The notes under the pieces are model-generated. The model did not search any database, was not told the origin of the DNA, and saw nothing but the letters and a program-made list of their open reading frames with translations. Of a stretch of 64,000 bases of DNA, positions 37,374 through 43,312 are shown piece by piece (position 1 is the first letter of the stretch; each line of letters starts with the position of its first letter). The DNA is from Terrabacter sp. Root85 (GTDB taxonomy: Bacteria; Actinomycetota; Actinomycetes; Actinomycetales; Dermatophilaceae), in the NCBI RefSeq assembly GCF_001429185.1, contig NZ_LMIW01000008.1:670056-734055 (forward strand), given 5' to 3'. A program made the translations under genes and the position numbers.

Positions 37374-38663
37374 TCAGCCGCCACCGATCCGGCCGGCGAT
37401 GATGCTCGTGACGATGACCGACGTGATCGTCACGGTCGAGAAGCCGGCGACGATCATCTTGGGCAGGATCTCGTTCTCGATCGCGGCCACCTCCTCGGGG
37501 GTCTCTCCGGCTCCCTTGGCGGCCTCCTGGGACAGGATCATCGTGCCGGGGAAGCCGTAGAGCGAGGTGAGCCCGATCGCCACGGACATCGACACGCTGT
37601 AGCCGAGCAGCTTGCCGACGAGAGCCGAGAAGCTCGCGATCCCGACGATCCCGAAGGCGAAGGCGATGAGCAGCGGCACGGCCAGCGCTGACACGTCGCT
37701 GGGCTTCACCGTCGCCAGGGGTCCGAAGACGAGGATCATGATGGCGATCATCATGAGACCGAAGGCGTCGATGCCCGACAGGACCGACGGCTTGAAGATC
37801 CCCGTCGTGCGCAGGCCGATGCCGAAGAGCAGGGCCACGACGAACGTGTTGAGGATGCCGTCGGTGACGTTGTTGATGCCCAGACTGATGAGCACGACGA
37901 CCCCGACGATGAAGAGGGTGCCGGCCGTCGTGCGGAGGGCGCCGGGCAGCTTCGTCTCCGGCACGGGCTCGGCGGGCGGCGTGGCGCCGCCCCCGCTGCT
38001 GCCGGCGTCGCCCTTGCTGCCGCCGCCATCGCCCCCGCCGCTGGCGGCGGCGGCCCCCGCGGCCACCACCGGCGCCAGCGTGCCCGCTCGGTACTCCTCC
38101 TTTAGCCGGGCGGCCTCGCGGCGCAGGATGATCGAGGTGAGCGGGAAGCCGATGAGCCCCTGGAGCGCGGCGATGAGGACGGGGAAGACGGCGATGCTCG
38201 TCAGGCCGACGCCGAGGGCCGCCTCCTGGACGATGAGGACCGAGATGGTGCCCCCGCTCAAGGCGCCGGTGCCGGCGACCACGAAGTCGAGAGCCTGCGC
38301 ATAGCCGTCGGCCGCGGAGCCCGTGATCCGAGGCCCGAAGATGAATCCGGCCAGCAGCAGGGCAAGTCCGATGCCGATGACAGTGGCGATGCCGACGAGC
38401 AGCGTCTTCCACTGCTTCTTGAAGTCGTCGAGGCTGATCATGGTGCCGAGGTGGACGATGACGAAGCCGACGACGACGCCGGCGAGCGCGAGCAGGCTCG
38501 AGCTCGCGAGGAGGTCCTCGGGGAAGACGTCGGTGAGGAAGCCGACGAAGAAGATGATCGAGGCGACGAAGAGCGAGGACAGCAGCGACCTCGTCTTCTT
38601 CGCGACGAGGTCGCTCACGGTCCAGACGAGCATGACGATGACGAACGCGAGCACCGGGTTCAC
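37374..38663 (-). CDS. Polytopic membrane transporter of unknown substrate
   Basis: The 429-residue protein has about eleven membrane helices in two halves of five or six, separated by a Gly/Ser-rich, low-complexity cytosolic loop at about residues 200-228. Both halves carry a glycine-rich helix break (GTGALSGGTISVLIVQEAALG and GLTSLYGFPGTMILSQEAAKG), an inverted-repeat feature of ion-coupled permeases such as the GltS group. I do not recognise the specific family. GTG 38663 is the probable start. It faces the secreted protein tail-to-tail, with 27 bases between stops, and shows no partner subunit. Confidence 0.75.
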   Translation of the reverse strand: MNPVLAFVIVMLVWTVSDLVAKKTRSLLSSLFVASIIFFVGFLTDVFPEDLLASSSLLALAGVVVGFVIVHLGTMISLDDFKKQWKTLLVGIATVIGIGLALLLAGFIFGPRITGSAADGYAQALDFVVAGTGALSGGTISVLIVQEAALGVGLTSIAVFPVLIAALQGLIGFPLTSIILRREAARLKEEYRAGTLAPVVAAGAAAASGGGDGGGSKGDAGSSGGGATPPAEPVPETKLPGALRTTAGTLFIVGVVVLISLGINNVTDGILNTFVVALLFGIGLRTTGIFKPSVLSGIDAFGLMMIAIMILVFGPLATVKPSDVSALAVPLLIAFAFGIVGIASFSALVGKLLGYSVSMSVAIGLTSLYGFPGTMILSQEAAKGAGETPEEVAAIENEILPKMIVAGFSTVTITSVIVTSIIAGRIGGG

Positions 38664-38774: not shown

Positions 38775-39074
38775 TCAGCCCTGCTGCCAGGCGGGGTCGC
38801 AGGAGAGCTCGACGTTGATCCAGGTGGCCACACTCAGGTGGCGCAGCCGCTCGGTGACGGCCTGACGGGCCGGGTGCTCGATCTCGGGGGGAGGCCTCAT
38901 CTCGAGCAGCTCGCGCAGCATGGTCCGGACGAAGCCGACGGGGGCCGGGAGCACCATGAGTGACACGACGATGACGAGCACCGGGTCGACCAGTGCTGAC
39001 GCGGTGTGCTTGACGTCACCAGCGGGCAGCACCGTCACGACGAGGAACCCGACGGTCCGTGGCCTCGGTGGCAT
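38775..39074 (-). pseudogene. Remnant of a cation diffusion facilitator (CDF) transporter
   Basis: The 99-residue frame contains ALVDPVLVIVVSLMVLPAPVGFVRTMLRELLEMRPPPEIEHPARQAVTERL, which matches the last membrane helix and the start of the cytosolic domain of CDF cation exporters (the D-P-x3-L and E-L-L-E-x-x-P elements). The first five membrane helices are absent: only 55 bases separate this frame from a riboswitch that belongs to another gene. The expected cytosolic domain after the helix is also cut short by a stop. This is best read as a truncated leftover and not a functional transporter, although it could still be expressed. Confidence 0.5.
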
Positions 39075-39100
39075 CTCAGGGAGTGGTCGCCCACTATCCC

Positions 39101-39121
39101 TACCAAATAGGTATGTTATCT
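39101..39121 (+). promoter_or_regulatory. Promoter with inverted-repeat operator before the SAM-IV riboswitch
   Basis: TACC-AAATA-GGTA (39101-39113) is a small perfect inverted repeat. Directly after it TTATCT (39116-39121) is a fair -10 box, placing the transcript start close to the first riboswitch base at 39130. The repeat would overlap the promoter spacer, a classic repressor position. The cognate regulator is unknown. Confidence 0.45.
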
Positions 39122-39129
39122 TCTCTGCA

Positions 39130-39250
39130 GGTCATGAGTCCCAGCGACAAGCCCCGGCTTGCTGGGCGGCAACCCTCCTCCGCGGTGGGGTGCCCCGGGT
39201 GAGGACCAGGCGTCGACCCCTCGGTCGACGCAAGCGCGGGCTCGACGAGG
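39130..39250 (+). ncRNA. SAM-IV riboswitch
   Basis: The sequence begins GGTCATGAG and contains CAAGCCCCGGCTTGCTGG, CGGCAACCCTCC, CGCGGTGGGGTGCCCCGG and then GAGGACC, in the order and spacing that I know for the SAM-IV class of actinobacterial riboswitches. GGTC at the start pairs with GACC at about 39204 to close the core, and a further hairpin CGTCGACC/GGTCGACG and the AAGCGCGGG element follow, as in that class. SAM-IV aptamers bind S-adenosylmethionine and lower expression of sulfur-assimilation genes. The downstream genes are an organosulfur operon, which agrees. The 3' boundary is approximate. Confidence 0.9.
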
Positions 39251-39273
39251 GCCCCACGGACACAAGGGTTCCC

Positions 39274-39378
39274 ATGACGCACACCACCGAACGGCGATCC
39301 CGCGGCCACGCCCTGTGGGCTCACCGCCGCCGGCACGTCGACCTCTCCCGGGTGAGCAGCGCCCTCTGTCGGGACTGA
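39274..39378 (+). CDS. Leader peptide of the organosulfur operon (probable cysteine attenuator)
   Basis: A 34-residue open frame begins at ATG 39274 after the riboswitch. Its C-terminal half reads RRHVDLSRVSSALCRD, the pattern of small actinobacterial leader peptides placed before cysteine and sulfur-metabolism genes, with a single Cys near the end. Translation of the Cys codon would slow when charged cysteinyl-tRNA is scarce, which could change downstream RNA folding. No competing terminator hairpin could be drawn with certainty, so the mechanism is inferred from position and conserved motif. The 110-base gap from its stop to the cysteine dioxygenase gene leaves room for one. Confidence 0.75.
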   Translation: MTHTTERRSRGHALWAHRRRHVDLSRVSSALCRD

Positions 39379-39488
39379 CGACCAGACGACCGCATGCGCA
39401 GTGTCGGCAGCCCCACTGGGTCCTGCTGTGGCGCGCGGCGTCCCCGTAGTCCGTCTCGACCCACCCGCACACCTTCAGGAGCCTTGCC

Positions 39489-40046
39489 ATGCCTCTGCGC
39501 ACCCGCCCCGACCGGACCACCGCCCTCACCACGCTCTCTGCGCCCGGCGCCGGGACGCCATCGACGTTCGCACCACGGACCGCCGTCAACCTCGCGGAGA
39601 CGGCTCGGCGCCTCGCGGGCGACCGTGCCCTCTGGGCCGGCCTCGTCGACTTCGACCCCATCAGCCGCTACTACGCCCGGATCGCCGCCGAGCCCGACCA
39701 CGAGGCCTGGCTGCTCACCTGGCTCCCCGGCCAAGCGACGGAGTGGCACGACCACGGGCAGAGCGCCGGCTCGTTCGTCGTCCTGCAGGGACAGCTGAGC
39801 GAGCGCGTCGCCGATCTGGACGGTCCCGACCGGACCCCGCAGGTCGGTGAGGACGTCGGCCGGCTGCGGCCCGGCCAGCAGCGCACGTTCGGACGTCGCT
39901 ACGTGCACCACGTGAGCAACGAGGGCCCGGACCCGGCGGTGAGCCTGCACGTGTACTCCCCGCGCCTCACCGAGATGACCACGTACGCGCTCACCGGCAC
40001 GAACCTCCGGCCGATCGAGCTGCAGCAGAAGGGAGTCGACTGGTGA
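39489..40046 (+). CDS. Cysteine dioxygenase family protein
   Basis: The 185-residue cupin has iron ligands His87 and His89 (EWHDHGQSAG) and His140 (YVHHVSN), the same spacing as mammalian cysteine dioxygenase (86, 88, 140). The Ser-His-Tyr triad is also present as S152, H154 and Y156. The Cys of the Cys-Tyr crosslink is Gly here, as is usual in bacteria. It oxidises cysteine, or a related thiol, to the sulfinate with iron and oxygen. It heads the operon after the leader peptide, has AGGAG before its ATG, and overlaps the next gene by GTGA. In this setting the product may feed sulfinate/sulfite use. Confidence 0.9.
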   Translation: MPLRTRPDRTTALTTLSAPGAGTPSTFAPRTAVNLAETARRLAGDRALWAGLVDFDPISRYYARIAAEPDHEAWLLTWLPGQATEWHDHGQSAGSFVVLQGQLSERVADLDGPDRTPQVGEDVGRLRPGQQRTFGRRYVHHVSNEGPDPAVSLHVYSPRLTEMTTYALTGTNLRPIELQQKGVDW

Positions 40047-41269
40047 CTGGCCTCACTCCGAACGCCACGCCGATCCACCTCGCCGTCGCCCTCGACGGTG
40101 CGGGATGGCACCCGGCAGCGTGGCGCGAGCCTGGTGCGCGGCCGGACGACCTCCTCACCGCCCGCTACTGGGCCGACCTCACCACCACGGCCGAACGCGG
40201 CCTGCTCGACTTCGTGACGATCGAGGACAGTCTCGATCTCCAGTCGGCGGACCCCTTCTCCGACGACGTCGACACGCGCACCGACCAGGTGCGCGGGCGG
40301 CTCGACGCCCTCCTCGTCGCAGCCACGGTCGCGCCCCTGACGCGGCACGTCGGCCTCGTCCCGACCGTCACGACGACCCACACCGAGCCGTTCCACGTCT
40401 CCAAGGCCGTCGCCACCCTCGACCACGTGAGCCACGGTCGTGCTGGCTGGCGGGTGCAGGTGGGTGGCACACGCGGCGAGACCGGCAACGTCGGTCGTCG
40501 CACCCTCCCCCCGATCCGACGGGACCTCGCCTCCAGTCCCGAGGGCCGCGCTGCCGTGCGCGAGCGCTTCGACGAGGCTGCCGACCACGTCGAGGTCGTC
40601 CGGCGGCTCTGGGACAGCTGGGAGGACGACGCCGAGATCCGCGACGTCACGACCGGGCGGTTCGTCGACCGGGACCGGCTGCACCATGTCGACTTCGAGG
40701 GCCGGCACTTCAGCGTCCGAGGCCCGTCGATCACGCCGCGACCACCACAGGGGCAGCCCGTCGTCACCGCCCTGGCGCACCAGACGATCCCGTACGAGCT
40801 GGCGGCCCGGTCGGCGGACGTCGTCTTCGTGACGCCGCACGACGACGAGCAGGCCGCGAGCATCCTCGGCGAGGTCCGAGGGGCAGAGGCGCGGGTCGGG
40901 CGCAACGCCCGTCCCCTCACGGTCTTCGCCGACCTCGTCGTGGTCCTGGGGAGCACGACAGACGCAGCCCGGACCCGGCGACGGCGGCTCGACGAGGCCG
41001 CGGGGTCGCCCTTGACGTCCGATGCCCACGTCTTCACGGGCACCGCTGCCGACCTCGCGTCGCTCCTGCTCCGTTGGCACGACGTCGGCTACGACGGCTT
41101 CCGGCTGCGTCCGGCCGTCGTCGTGGACGATCTCACCGCGGTCGTGGACGAGCTCGTGCCCGCGCTCCAGCGCGCTGGGGCCTTCCGGACGGCATACGAC
41201 CCCGGCACGCTGCGCGAGCGCCTCGGCCTGCCCGTCGCCGTGAACCGCTACGCCGCCGCGTCGGCGTGA
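40043..41269 (+). CDS. LLM-class flavin-dependent monooxygenase (first of two)
   Basis: The 408-residue protein belongs to the bacterial luciferase-like family. It shows LAVALDGAGWHPAAW near the N-terminus, LDFVTIEDS, GLVPTVTTTHTEPFHVSKAVATLDHVSHGRAGWRV and the C-terminal DGFRLRPAVVVDDL, a barrel layout like those of the NtaA/SnaA/DszA and alkanesulfonate monooxygenase groups. It uses reduced FMN and oxygen to cleave or oxygenate a substrate such as an organosulfur compound. GTG 40043 overlaps the cysteine dioxygenase stop. A partner FMN reductase lies at the end of the operon. The exact substrate is not determined. Confidence 0.86.
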   Translation: MTGLTPNATPIHLAVALDGAGWHPAAWREPGARPDDLLTARYWADLTTTAERGLLDFVTIEDSLDLQSADPFSDDVDTRTDQVRGRLDALLVAATVAPLTRHVGLVPTVTTTHTEPFHVSKAVATLDHVSHGRAGWRVQVGGTRGETGNVGRRTLPPIRRDLASSPEGRAAVRERFDEAADHVEVVRRLWDSWEDDAEIRDVTTGRFVDRDRLHHVDFEGRHFSVRGPSITPRPPQGQPVVTALAHQTIPYELAARSADVVFVTPHDDEQAASILGEVRGAEARVGRNARPLTVFADLVVVLGSTTDAARTRRRRLDEAAGSPLTSDAHVFTGTAADLASLLLRWHDVGYDGFRLRPAVVVDDLTAVVDELVPALQRAGAFRTAYDPGTLRERLGLPVAVNRYAAASA

Positions 41270-41282
41270 GAAGGGAGCTCCC

Positions 41283-42707
41283 ATGACGCAGCACCGCAAG
41301 CAGGTCATCCTCGGCGCCCACTTCCCGGGGGTCAACAACACGACGGTGTGGAGCGACCCGGCCTCGGGCAGCCACATCGACCTGTCGTCGTTCACCCACT
41401 TCGCGCAGACGGCCGAGCGCGGCCGGTTCGACTTCCTCTTCCTCGCGGAGGGGCTGCGGCTGCGAGAGCAACGAGGTCGGATCCACGACCTCGACGTCGT
41501 CGGCCGGCCCGACACGTTCACCGTCCTCGCCGCCCTGGCTGCGGTGACGCAGCACCTCGGTCTCGCCGGCACGATCAACACGACGTTCAACGAGCCCTAC
41601 GAGGTCGCGCGCCAGTTCGCGACCCTCGATCACCTGTCCGGAGGACGCGCCGCGTGGAACGTCGTGACGAGCTCCGACGCCTTCACGGGTGAGAACTTCC
41701 GGCGTGGAGGGTTCCTCCCGCACGCCGAGCGTTACGAGCGCGCCGAGGAGTTCATCGCGACGGCCCGCGAGCTGTGGGACTCCTGGCCGGTCGACGCGGT
41801 GCGGGCGGACGGGGCCGACTTCCTGTCCGATGCCTCCGCGGGGACCTTCGAGCACCGCGGCAAGCACTTCGACGTCGCAGGCCGCTTCACCGTGCCCCGG
41901 AGCCCACAGGTCCATCCCGTCGTCCTGCAGGCCGGCGACTCGAGCGACGGCCGCGAGCTCGCAGCGCGCAGTGCGGACGCCATCTTCAGCCGCCACTCCA
42001 CCGGGGACGGCGCGCGCGAGTTCTACCTCGACGTCAAGGGCCGGCTCGAGCGCTACGGCCGGCGGCCGGACGACCTCAAGATCCTCCCGGCTGCCACGTT
42101 CGTGCTCGGTGACACCGACGCCGAGGCGGTCGACCGGGCGGCCGAGGTGCGGCGCCAGCAGGTGAGCCCGCAGACGGCGATCCTCCTGCTCGAGCAGGTC
42201 TGGAACCGCGACCTGTCCGACTACGACCCCGACGGCCCGCTGCCGACCGTCGACCCGATCGTCTCCGACGCGTCCTCGATCGTCCGCGGCCGCGCCCGGC
42301 AGGTCGGTGACCCCGCTGCCGAGGCGGCCCGCTACCGAGCCGTGGCCGAGGCCAAGGGGCTCAGCATCCGCGAGGTCGTCATCGAGCTGACCGGTCGCCA
42401 GACCTTCGTCGGCTCACCGGAGACCGTGGCCCGCGCCCTCGAGCACGCCGTCGCGACCGAGATCAGTGACGGCTTCATCCTCGTCCCGCACATCACCCCG
42501 GGCGGACTCGACGAGTTCGCCGACCGGGTGGTGCCGCTGCTGCAGGAGCGCGGCGTCCTGCGCCGCGACTACGCCGAGGGTGCCACCCTCCGGGATCACC
42601 TCGGCCTGGGGCCAGCGCGGCCCGCATCCGACTGGGGGACAGGGGTGTCGGCCGCTCACGGTGCGTCGGCCGAGCCCCTGCGGACCGGCGTCAGGGCGAG
42701 CGCGTGA
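41283..42707 (+). CDS. NtaA/SnaA/DszA-type flavin monooxygenase
   Basis: The 474-residue protein starts QVILGAHFPGVNNTTVWSDP and has THFAQTAERGRFDFLFLAEGLRL, VTQHLGLAGTINTTFNEPYEVARQFATLDHLSGGRAAWNVVTS and RYERAEEFIATARELWDSW, the signature of the DszA/NtaA/SnaA branch of luciferase-like monooxygenases. These depend on FMNH2 from a separate reductase and often act on sulfones, sulfonates or aminopolycarboxylates. In this sulfur-controlled operon an organosulfur substrate is the natural guess. AGAAGGGAG lies just before ATG 41283. The stop overlaps the FMN reductase start (GTGA). Confidence 0.9.
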   Translation: MTQHRKQVILGAHFPGVNNTTVWSDPASGSHIDLSSFTHFAQTAERGRFDFLFLAEGLRLREQRGRIHDLDVVGRPDTFTVLAALAAVTQHLGLAGTINTTFNEPYEVARQFATLDHLSGGRAAWNVVTSSDAFTGENFRRGGFLPHAERYERAEEFIATARELWDSWPVDAVRADGADFLSDASAGTFEHRGKHFDVAGRFTVPRSPQVHPVVLQAGDSSDGRELAARSADAIFSRHSTGDGAREFYLDVKGRLERYGRRPDDLKILPAATFVLGDTDAEAVDRAAEVRRQQVSPQTAILLLEQVWNRDLSDYDPDGPLPTVDPIVSDASSIVRGRARQVGDPAAEAARYRAVAEAKGLSIREVVIELTGRQTFVGSPETVARALEHAVATEISDGFILVPHITPGGLDEFADRVVPLLQERGVLRRDYAEGATLRDHLGLGPARPASDWGTGVSAAHGASAEPLRTGVRASA

Positions 42708-43312
42708 CGGCGACGCCTGCGGCCGCTGGCACGGTGGTCGAGGTCGTCGAGCTCGTCGGCAACCCGCGGGTCGGCTCGCGCACGCGAGCCCTGGCGGACC
42801 TCGTCGTGCGTTCGCTCGCCGAGACGGTGGAGGCGGACGGACGAGCCGCGCCGGACGGCATACGCCTGGGGGTGCCCGTCGTCATCGAGCTGGGCGAGGC
42901 GGTCGGCGTCACCTTCGGGGCCGAGGTGGCGCGGGCCTCGGCTCCCGTCGAGGACCCGTTCGGTGTCGTGAGGCGCGCCGGGCTGCTCGTCGTGGCGACC
43001 CCGACGTACAAGGCGACCTACAGCGGGCTGCTCAAGCTCTTTCTCGACCACCTGAGCCAAGGCGACCTCGCGGGGGTCGCGGCGGTGCCGGTGGCGATCG
43101 CCGGCGCCCCCGCTCACCGCGACGCCGTCGCGACCGCGCTGCGCGACCTCCTCGTCGAGCTCGGCGCCGACGTGCCCACGCCCACCGTTGCGCTGCTCGA
43201 GAGCGAGGTCGCCGACCAGGAAGAGCACGTCCGCCGCTGGGTGGGGACGTATGCCGCCACGCTGGGTGCCAGCCTCGCCCGCGCGTCCGAGCCGGTCGGC
43301 GCGCAGACGTGA
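42704..43312 (+). CDS. NADPH-dependent FMN reductase
   Basis: The 202-residue protein has the flavodoxin-like fold of SsuE/FMN reductases: VVELVGNPRVGSRTRALADLVVRSL at the start, ATPTYKATYSGLLKLFLDHL in the middle (flavin and dimer contacts) and VPVAIAGAPAHRDAVATALRDLLVELGA. It supplies FMNH2 to the two monooxygenases encoded just upstream, whose stop it overlaps. This completes a two-component monooxygenase system. Its start is GTG 42704. No further operon gene follows; the next gene starts after 138 bases. Confidence 0.9.
   Translation: MTATPAAAGTVVEVVELVGNPRVGSRTRALADLVVRSLAETVEADGRAAPDGIRLGVPVVIELGEAVGVTFGAEVARASAPVEDPFGVVRRAGLLVVATPTYKATYSGLLKLFLDHLSQGDLAGVAAVPVAIAGAPAHRDAVATALRDLLVELGADVPTPTVALLESEVADQEEHVRRWVGTYAATLGASLARASEPVGAQT

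Follow-up and report, generated by a model that had tools for sequence, protein, structure and literature searches.

Riboswitches and leader peptides have usually been studied singly. In the accessible part of PMC13236596, which cites Canestrari 2020 on this point, cysteine genes of Mycobacterium smegmatis are described as being under translation attenuation. According to the available text of PMC11260477, a B12 riboswitch of Mycobacterium tuberculosis acts on the initiation region of the uORF uPPE2, upon whose translation the expression of PPE2 depends. The available portion of PMC12810186 similarly presents the Mbox of M. tuberculosis as controlling the uORF Rv1805A, with Rho-dependent termination. 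For the SAM-IV class, the part of PMC6890682 at hand identifies PK-2 as a pairing of the P3 region with the 3' end. Riboswitch-controlled uORFs have hence been published for B12 and Mg2+, while in the open-licence literature that was searched we found no report of a SAM riboswitch combined with a cysteine leader, or of the codon rule (UGU) described below.

Here we analyze a locus in a window of 64 kb (the whole stretch of DNA under study, 64,000 nucleotides) from Terrabacter sp. Root85. On balance we favor the reading, drawn from sequence comparisons, that it specifies a two-signal leader RNA, with one sensor nested in the other, for an operon that probably functions in organosulfur use.

The aptamer, the leader and the promoter block

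The original prediction had placed a SAM-IV aptamer at 39130-39250 and suggested a covariance-model search as a check. This search, with the Rfam model, recovered RF00634 at 39130-39242 on the forward strand over the full length of the model (positions 1-116), with 113 bits (gathering score 38) and an E-value of 4.5e-20. As this is the sole Rfam match above gathering score in the 64-kb window, there is no indication of a second aptamer such as a tandem riboswitch would have. The P3 loop and the 3' tail can also pair, in that the PK-2 5' strand CCGCG (39180-39184) is complementary to the 3' strand CGCGG (39235-39239), two G of which are shared with the hairpin H1 considered further below.

The 34-residue cysteine-type leader that had been proposed behind the aptamer was recovered too. 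The ORF (39274-39378, forward strand) runs from an ATG at 39274 to a TGA stop at 39376-39378, encodes the peptide MTHTTERRSRGHALWAHRRRHVDLSRVSSALCRD and passes the cut-off of the 'putative leader peptide' family NF042934 with 30.2 bits against 27. Its start codon lies 31 nt behind the end of the aptamer and is preceded by a Shine-Dalgarno-like AAGGG at 39264-39268, in a segment, ACAAGGGnnCCCATG, that is unchanged in all four aligned loci. The leader scored 21.5 and 15.3 bits with the Ms4527A and Ms5788A families respectively, below the cut-off of 45 that applies to each. Nor is it of the polycysteine leaderless type, given that it has a single Cys codon rather than a run of them, and a start set back from the aptamer by the above-stated distance. 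The leaders L072-L075 of family f7, which have no riboswitch, are just 18 residues long (MLWRRLHIDLKRLTSSNC and variants) with Cys as the last residue, and these could be leaderless.

An inverted repeat at the promoter, TACC-N5-GGTA, had been suggested as a third layer of control. The repeat itself is present at 39101-39113; however, none of the three aligned relatives has it in perfect form, the sequence being TACCAAATCAGTA in two of them (G002 and G007) and TACTAGATCAGTA in Humibacillus, and the genome has four such sites against eight for the reversed control pattern. Being perfect only in the window and not enriched, it was rejected as a third layer; the conserved promoter block may still hold a different operator. 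Upstream of the riboswitch, on the reverse strand (37374-38663), lies a 429-aa hydrophobic-looking ORF with no Pfam match at 1e-5.

The motif cysteine codon, the spacer and the operon

The cysteine of the leader motif is encoded at 39367-39369 by UGU, and this codon is conserved across the leader family. Among 91 unique leaders that have the motif Cys, it is UGU in 86 and lies ten residues past the V of the VDL motif in 87; UGU is the majority codon in all 25 genera. Non-motif Cys codons of the same leaders are UGU in just 7 of 56 cases. In flanking frames UGU accounts for 27 of 305 Cys codons when 90 frames with GC3 >0.85 are taken, a filter that itself lowers UGU, for 68 of 503 when 98 frames are taken without the filter, and for 4 of 33 in the Pfam-named genes among the flanking frames. 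Pairing of UGU-CG with the VD codons in a hairpin was considered as the main cause of this preference and rejected, since UGU is kept in 37 of the 42 leaders that are unable to form it. The five UGC exceptions all belong to these 42, and the 49 leaders able to pair have none; to judge by this distribution RNA pairing may add to the rule.

Only one tRNA-Cys gene, with the anticodon GCA, was found in the genome (48 tRNA matches were checked with ARAGORN, one weak match being unconfirmed), so UGU is read by wobble; such a codon would be more sensitive than its synonym to low levels of Cys-tRNA. The motif Cys is absent in seven of the 98 unique leaders, two of which are in SAM-I tandems, and false matches may account for at least part of the remaining five (L161 and L167 being examples). 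In L115 and L139, SAM-I tandems of family f15, the RRHVDL motif is kept with no Cys after it (SSALPPRR and SSALSTPR).

A different kind of constraint is seen in the rest of the motif. Arginine is present three residues before and four residues after the V of VDL in 98 of 98 unique leader cores; as these were picked by the pattern [VIL]D[LY], the conservation of the D and L is partly by construction. The third positions of the motif Arg and Leu codons vary across these cores, which implies that selection acts on the peptide. This raises the alternative that the leader is a nascent-chain arrest peptide, with RRHVDL.R..SA sensing in the exit tunnel something other than Cys-tRNA, such as cysteine, a thiol or a cofactor. 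Attenuation by codon starvation would not need the motif residues to be kept while their codons drift, and the presence of a single Cys codon also suits an arrest peptide. Yet at the Cys codon even the third base (U) is conserved, which argues for decoding at this position. We accordingly regard arrest as an unlikely explanation when taken by itself, with the proviso that the two ideas can be combined.

Downstream of the leader, 110 nt separate the stop codon from the first gene, and most of this spacer (39379-39475, forward strand) is C-rich and G-poor, with 41 C against 28 G among its 97 nt; we propose it as a Rho loading region. The composition is typical of the family: an excess of C over G of 0.10 or more is found in 70 of the 73 spacers between leader and gene (28 of 30 for tandem leaders and 42 of 43 for the rest), against 8 of 25 SAM-IV-to-gene spacers that have no leader, of which 20 of 25 still have more C than G (Fisher p 2e-10). 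This comparison covers 73 of 101 leaders and 25 SAM-IV loci, with the first genes chosen by a codon-composition rule under which some starts may be wrong. A consensus scan of 38960-39560 found no terminator-like site, such as the intrinsic terminator that a classical attenuator would have, and a rho gene is present in the genome. By composition and gene presence alone, then, the locus has the C-rich, G-poor RNA after the leader and the factor that a Rho-dependent attenuator calls for. Together, the C-rich spacers, the lack of a detected terminator and the presence of rho point to Rho-dependent attenuation. Under such a mechanism, with ample Cys-tRNA the ribosome would pass the UGU codon and finish the leader, leaving the C-rich spacer exposed to Rho, while with scarce Cys-tRNA it would wait at UGU, close to the stop codon, and shield the RNA so that transcription goes on.

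A competitor at this step is translation attenuation, whereby a stall in the leader would unmask the Shine-Dalgarno of the first gene (AGGAG, 39477-39481) without any involvement of Rho. Stalling of this kind in a uORF is described in the available part of PMC13236596, which, citing Canestrari 2020, places the M. smegmatis cysteine genes under it, and the lack of an intrinsic terminator at 38960-39560 is also consistent with it. Against this, no notable rise in the accessibility of the gene's Shine-Dalgarno was predicted in 15 loci when a ribosome was placed at the Cys codon: in the window the values are 0.28 for the free RNA and 0.26 with the ribosome, and the largest changes in the set are falls, in L062 and L111. 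In addition the C-rich spacer is a better fit to Rho. For these reasons Rho-dependent attenuation is preferred, and unmasking of the gene's Shine-Dalgarno appears improbable.

The operon that had been noted behind the leader is indeed present at 39489-43312, all on the forward strand. Its first gene (39489-40046) encodes a thiol dioxygenase of the cysteine-dioxygenase family (PF05995, 2.1e-20; best E against PDB cysteine dioxygenases 3.8e-10). It is followed by two FMN-dependent monooxygenases of the NtaA/DmoA family, at 40043-41269 and 41283-42707, with TIGR03860 scores of 290.9 and 414.3 bits against a cut-off of 279.7, and by an NADPH-dependent FMN reductase at 42704-43312 (PF03358, 5.3e-18). 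From these family names we conclude that the operon is probably one for organosulfur use. Induction of a thiol dioxygenase by cysteine shortage would be odd if cysteine is its substrate, and the PF05995 enzyme may use another thiol. In Humibacillus xanthopallidus (L195) the leader RNA is kept and the dioxygenase gene, as judged by eye, is reduced to short pieces, which suggests that the regulation may serve the monooxygenases.

Across the order, 16 first genes were tested among 38 tandems of a SAM riboswitch and a leader: five have sulfur-related names (TauE, a PAPS reductase domain, nitrite/sulfite reductase, rhodanese and a Cys/Met PLP enzyme), nine are parts of ABC transporters, one is an FMN reductase and one a FAD-NAD(P)-binding protein. 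The tandem at L062 precedes a PAPS-reductase-domain gene of the core sulfate-assimilation type, indicating that the architecture is not confined to organosulfur operons.

Recurrence of the tandem and the SAM-dependent step

To see how far the arrangement extends, riboswitches and leaders can be compared at three levels. The 4.87-Mb genome has five SAM-IV riboswitches and at least two leader matches above cut-off (150 of 217 candidates scored), both of which stand directly behind a SAM-IV. The genes behind the second of these tandems (L182, G000:C12:131100-137500) encode an ABC permease, two solute-binding proteins of family 3 and a product that combines FMN reductase with acetyltransferase domains. 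Across nine genomes of the genus, 39 SAM-IV and at least eight leaders (E <=0.01, in five of the nine genomes) were counted. Going by coordinates, each of the eight leaders found has a SAM-IV immediately before it in the same orientation, and 31 of the 39 SAM-IV have no leader. Finally, 297 genomes of the order yielded at least 101 leader places (E <=0.001) in 59 genomes. A SAM riboswitch lies directly upstream on the same strand in 38 of these 101, 14 being SAM-IV and 24 SAM-I (RF00162). The remaining 63, of which 62 have neither class and one has a SAM-IV on the opposite strand, imply that the leader works without a riboswitch. At one locus (L145, G040:C103) a leader and a SAM-IV adjoin each other back to back, one on each strand.

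The 38 tandems are spread over 26 genomes, 12 genera and seven of the 13 families that bear leaders, and among the leaders listed at 27 bits or more 26 of 54 are in tandem, 13 with each riboswitch class. Rfam presence around all 101 leaders was judged at gathering scores. The leader counts are lower bounds, with up to 29 candidates per genome scored in the order and 150 in the single genome and the genus; SAM-IV in the order number at least 150 loci, and all counts include related sequences and were taken without correction for phylogeny.

Approached from the riboswitch side, the leader motif was present at none of the 27 readable loci among the best 30 SAM-IV of the order. A scan of SAM-IV loci was positive at 3 of 54 orientable loci, all within the genus, a figure that is no rate, for 7 of 61 loci were omitted, including four true tandems (L002, L025, L027 and L028). 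Named genomes were scanned by pattern as well, which gave 22 stretches; in 17 a SAM-IV start and core can be read. Of the 17, nine were loci already in the set; those beyond the nine were judged by SAM-IV start and core and not by Rfam score. In L195, from H. xanthopallidus, the SAM-IV core is present with its first base changed, while L189, L198, L199 and L203 lack the core and were set aside as chance pattern matches. The matches in named genomes include Actinacidiphila, which we take to belong to the Streptomycetaceae, outside the order searched.

As judged from these sequence counts, the pairing of SAM riboswitch and leader is not a chance one. Because it recurs with two riboswitch classes, we regard as well supported, at the level of architecture, the placement before one operon of an element of a SAM-binding class together with a member of a family thought to sense cysteine.

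How the two elements are joined is clearest in the SAM-I tandems. In 23 of the 24 the first in-frame leader start lies 4-7 nt past the aptamer end (12 nt in the remaining one), and in those 23 the P1 strand at the aptamer end is CGAUGGAGG or CGAUGGGAG. The 5' partner strand of P1 is CCAUC in 23 of the 24 and CUAUC in L113. Here the leader's Shine-Dalgarno and the SAM-closed P1 helix have two G in common. Most simply, the ORF that SAM-I would control in these tandems is the leader itself. Given this overlap, translation of the cysteine sensor is most likely under the control of SAM.

For SAM-IV, an equivalent step can be modeled with two helices. Hairpin H1 (39238-39254) pairs GGGCUC at 39238-39243 with GGGCCC at 39249-39254 (-11.3 kcal/mol) and is proposed as the anti-sequestor in the absence of SAM. 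Helix H2 (39249-39273) pairs 39249-39254 with GGG at 39266-39268 and CCC at 39271-39273 (-6.3 kcal/mol) and is proposed as the sequestor of the AAGGG. The two are mutually exclusive as the GGGCCC strand is common to both. Deprived of the two G of PK-2, H1 falls to -4.6 kcal/mol, and these energies imply that H1 would win without SAM and that H2 can win with it. In Humibacillus, where the sequence and loop of H1 have changed and its pairing is retained, the corresponding values are -12.7 for H1, -5.6 for truncated H1 and -6.8 kcal/mol for H2.

Among 28 unique SAM-IV tandems, an H1-type stem is significant against shuffles (p <0.05) in 12 and missing in two, the combined p being 3e-11 with relatedness uncorrected. 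A stem-permutation control was equalled by 2 of 100 permutations, on a set that contains related sequences. H1 is not peculiar to the tandems, an idea that was rejected given that H1-like stems are nearly as common at SAM-IV loci without a leader (29 of 46) as at those with one (20 of 28); it is rather a general SAM-IV feature.

The partition-function support for switching is mixed. In the 19 of 28 tandems that have a usable Shine-Dalgarno and H1, a gain of more than 0.15 in the accessibility of the former, on going from the PK-2-blocked state to the H1 state, is seen in 13, 10 and 8 cases with 6, 15 and 30 nt of leader respectively, and a drop in 0, 0 and 1. With a looser Shine-Dalgarno definition and 30 nt of leader there are eight rises and two falls (L110 and L020) among 21. 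At the window locus the value goes from 0.52 to 0.91 with 6 nt of leader and from 0.53 to 0.56 with 30 nt, and in its ortholog L020 the direction is reversed at 30 nt (0.75 to 0.23). On these folding models, the H1/H2 switch of SAM-IV is plausible, not proven.

In the scheme that we favor, SAM binding to the SAM-IV aptamer would engage PK-2 and take two G from H1. H2 would then cover the leader's Shine-Dalgarno and leave the leader untranslated, a step suggested by the Shine-Dalgarno/P1 overlap of the SAM-I tandems. At low SAM the leader would be translated and could report on Cys-tRNA, such that the operon would be on solely when SAM and cysteine are both low. The responses to the ligands, the stalling, the action of Rho and the direction of the logic are all inferred.

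The original prediction had envisaged a logic gate of two independent controls in series. Its two elements stand, and the idea of a gate is sound in kind, but the controls are probably nested, as their independence does not agree with the overlap in 23 of 24 SAM-I tandems, where SAM binding should touch leader initiation. A version of that reading would have the SAM-IV act alone, for instance by affecting overall RNA structure or the access of Rho ahead of the leader, with the leader responding separately to cysteine and no gating between them. The 62 of 101 leaders with no nearby SAM riboswitch match, the one more with an opposite-strand match and the 31 of 39 leaderless SAM-IV in the genus do indicate that each element can work alone, and H1 too is found without a leader. 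Nevertheless, the 31 nt between aptamer and leader offer little space for another platform, and in light of this and of the SAM-I geometry we consider independent action rather doubtful. That the leader is a chance or decayed ORF, with only the SAM-IV mattering, is very improbable: short ORFs are common in GC-rich DNA and the frame is open far upstream (ORF 38920-39378), but the curated NF042934 match, the position of both genomic matches found above cut-off (2/2) behind a SAM-IV, and the conservation at the codon level and of UGU all speak against it.

Returning to the nested arrangement, a more general proposition may be framed, which we hold to be about evenly balanced between right and wrong. 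It states that Actinobacteria have repeatedly superimposed a SAM riboswitch of either class (SAM-IV or SAM-I) on the ribosome-binding site of the cysteine-sensing leader, thereby nesting two metabolite sensors in one gate, with one of them serving as the gene that the other regulates. It further states that the family reads cysteine by one obligate wobble codon, UGU, kept although flanking frames favor UGC approximately six- to tenfold, and tuned to run dry first. If true, a single leader RNA would read SAM, at the end of methionine use, and cysteine, where sulfur enters, in a set order, through an architecture seen with two riboswitch classes in seven families of one order as sampled here. 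RNA signal integration would thereby become testable with small reporters, and the UGU rule would allow a single base change to show whether the choice between synonymous codons determines how sensitive an attenuator is. The NF042934 leaders, annotated just as 'putative', would gain a proposed mechanism, and searches for riboswitch targets that skip short ORFs can miss the real first ORF.

Comparison with described regulators

Several described regulators share individual components with this locus. The mycobacterial cysteine-responsive leaders (Canestrari 2020, as cited in the accessible source) are approached by the NF042934 match and a weak similarity to Ms4527A and Ms5788A; in contrast to what that source gives for them, there is here one Cys codon and not a run, and the leader is not leaderless and starts behind a riboswitch. 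The Cys leaders before cys operons and cbs in Actinobacteria, as presented in the available part of PMC1262725, likewise combine a cysteine leader with the lack of a terminator and a suggested role for Rho, but they have runs of Cys codons, and no riboswitch is described in that part. The uORFC-8-2 attenuator of cysS in Rhodobacterales also places uORF Cys codons before a cysteine gene; according to the portion of PMC8632094 at hand it differs in having two Cys codons, with UGC dominant, and an intrinsic terminator.

In the B12/uPPE2 system, on the available text of PMC11260477, the ligand partly masks the initiation region of the uORF and downstream expression needs uORF translation, as would be the case here. 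However, uPPE2 is not described in that text as a sensor of a second metabolite, its stop codon shares bases with the next start, and the authors make a case against Rho in that step. The Mbox/Rv1805A system shares a translational platform on a conserved uORF and Rho-dependent termination; it differs in responding to Mg2+ and not SAM, and in the accessible part of PMC12810186 the uORF is not described as a second-metabolite sensor, its role being unclear there. Lastly, with respect to the SAM-IV class itself (RF00634), the aptamer of this locus is a full-length member above gathering score with the PK-2 complement present, and it is set apart in that the next ORF is a leader peptide and not an enzyme gene.
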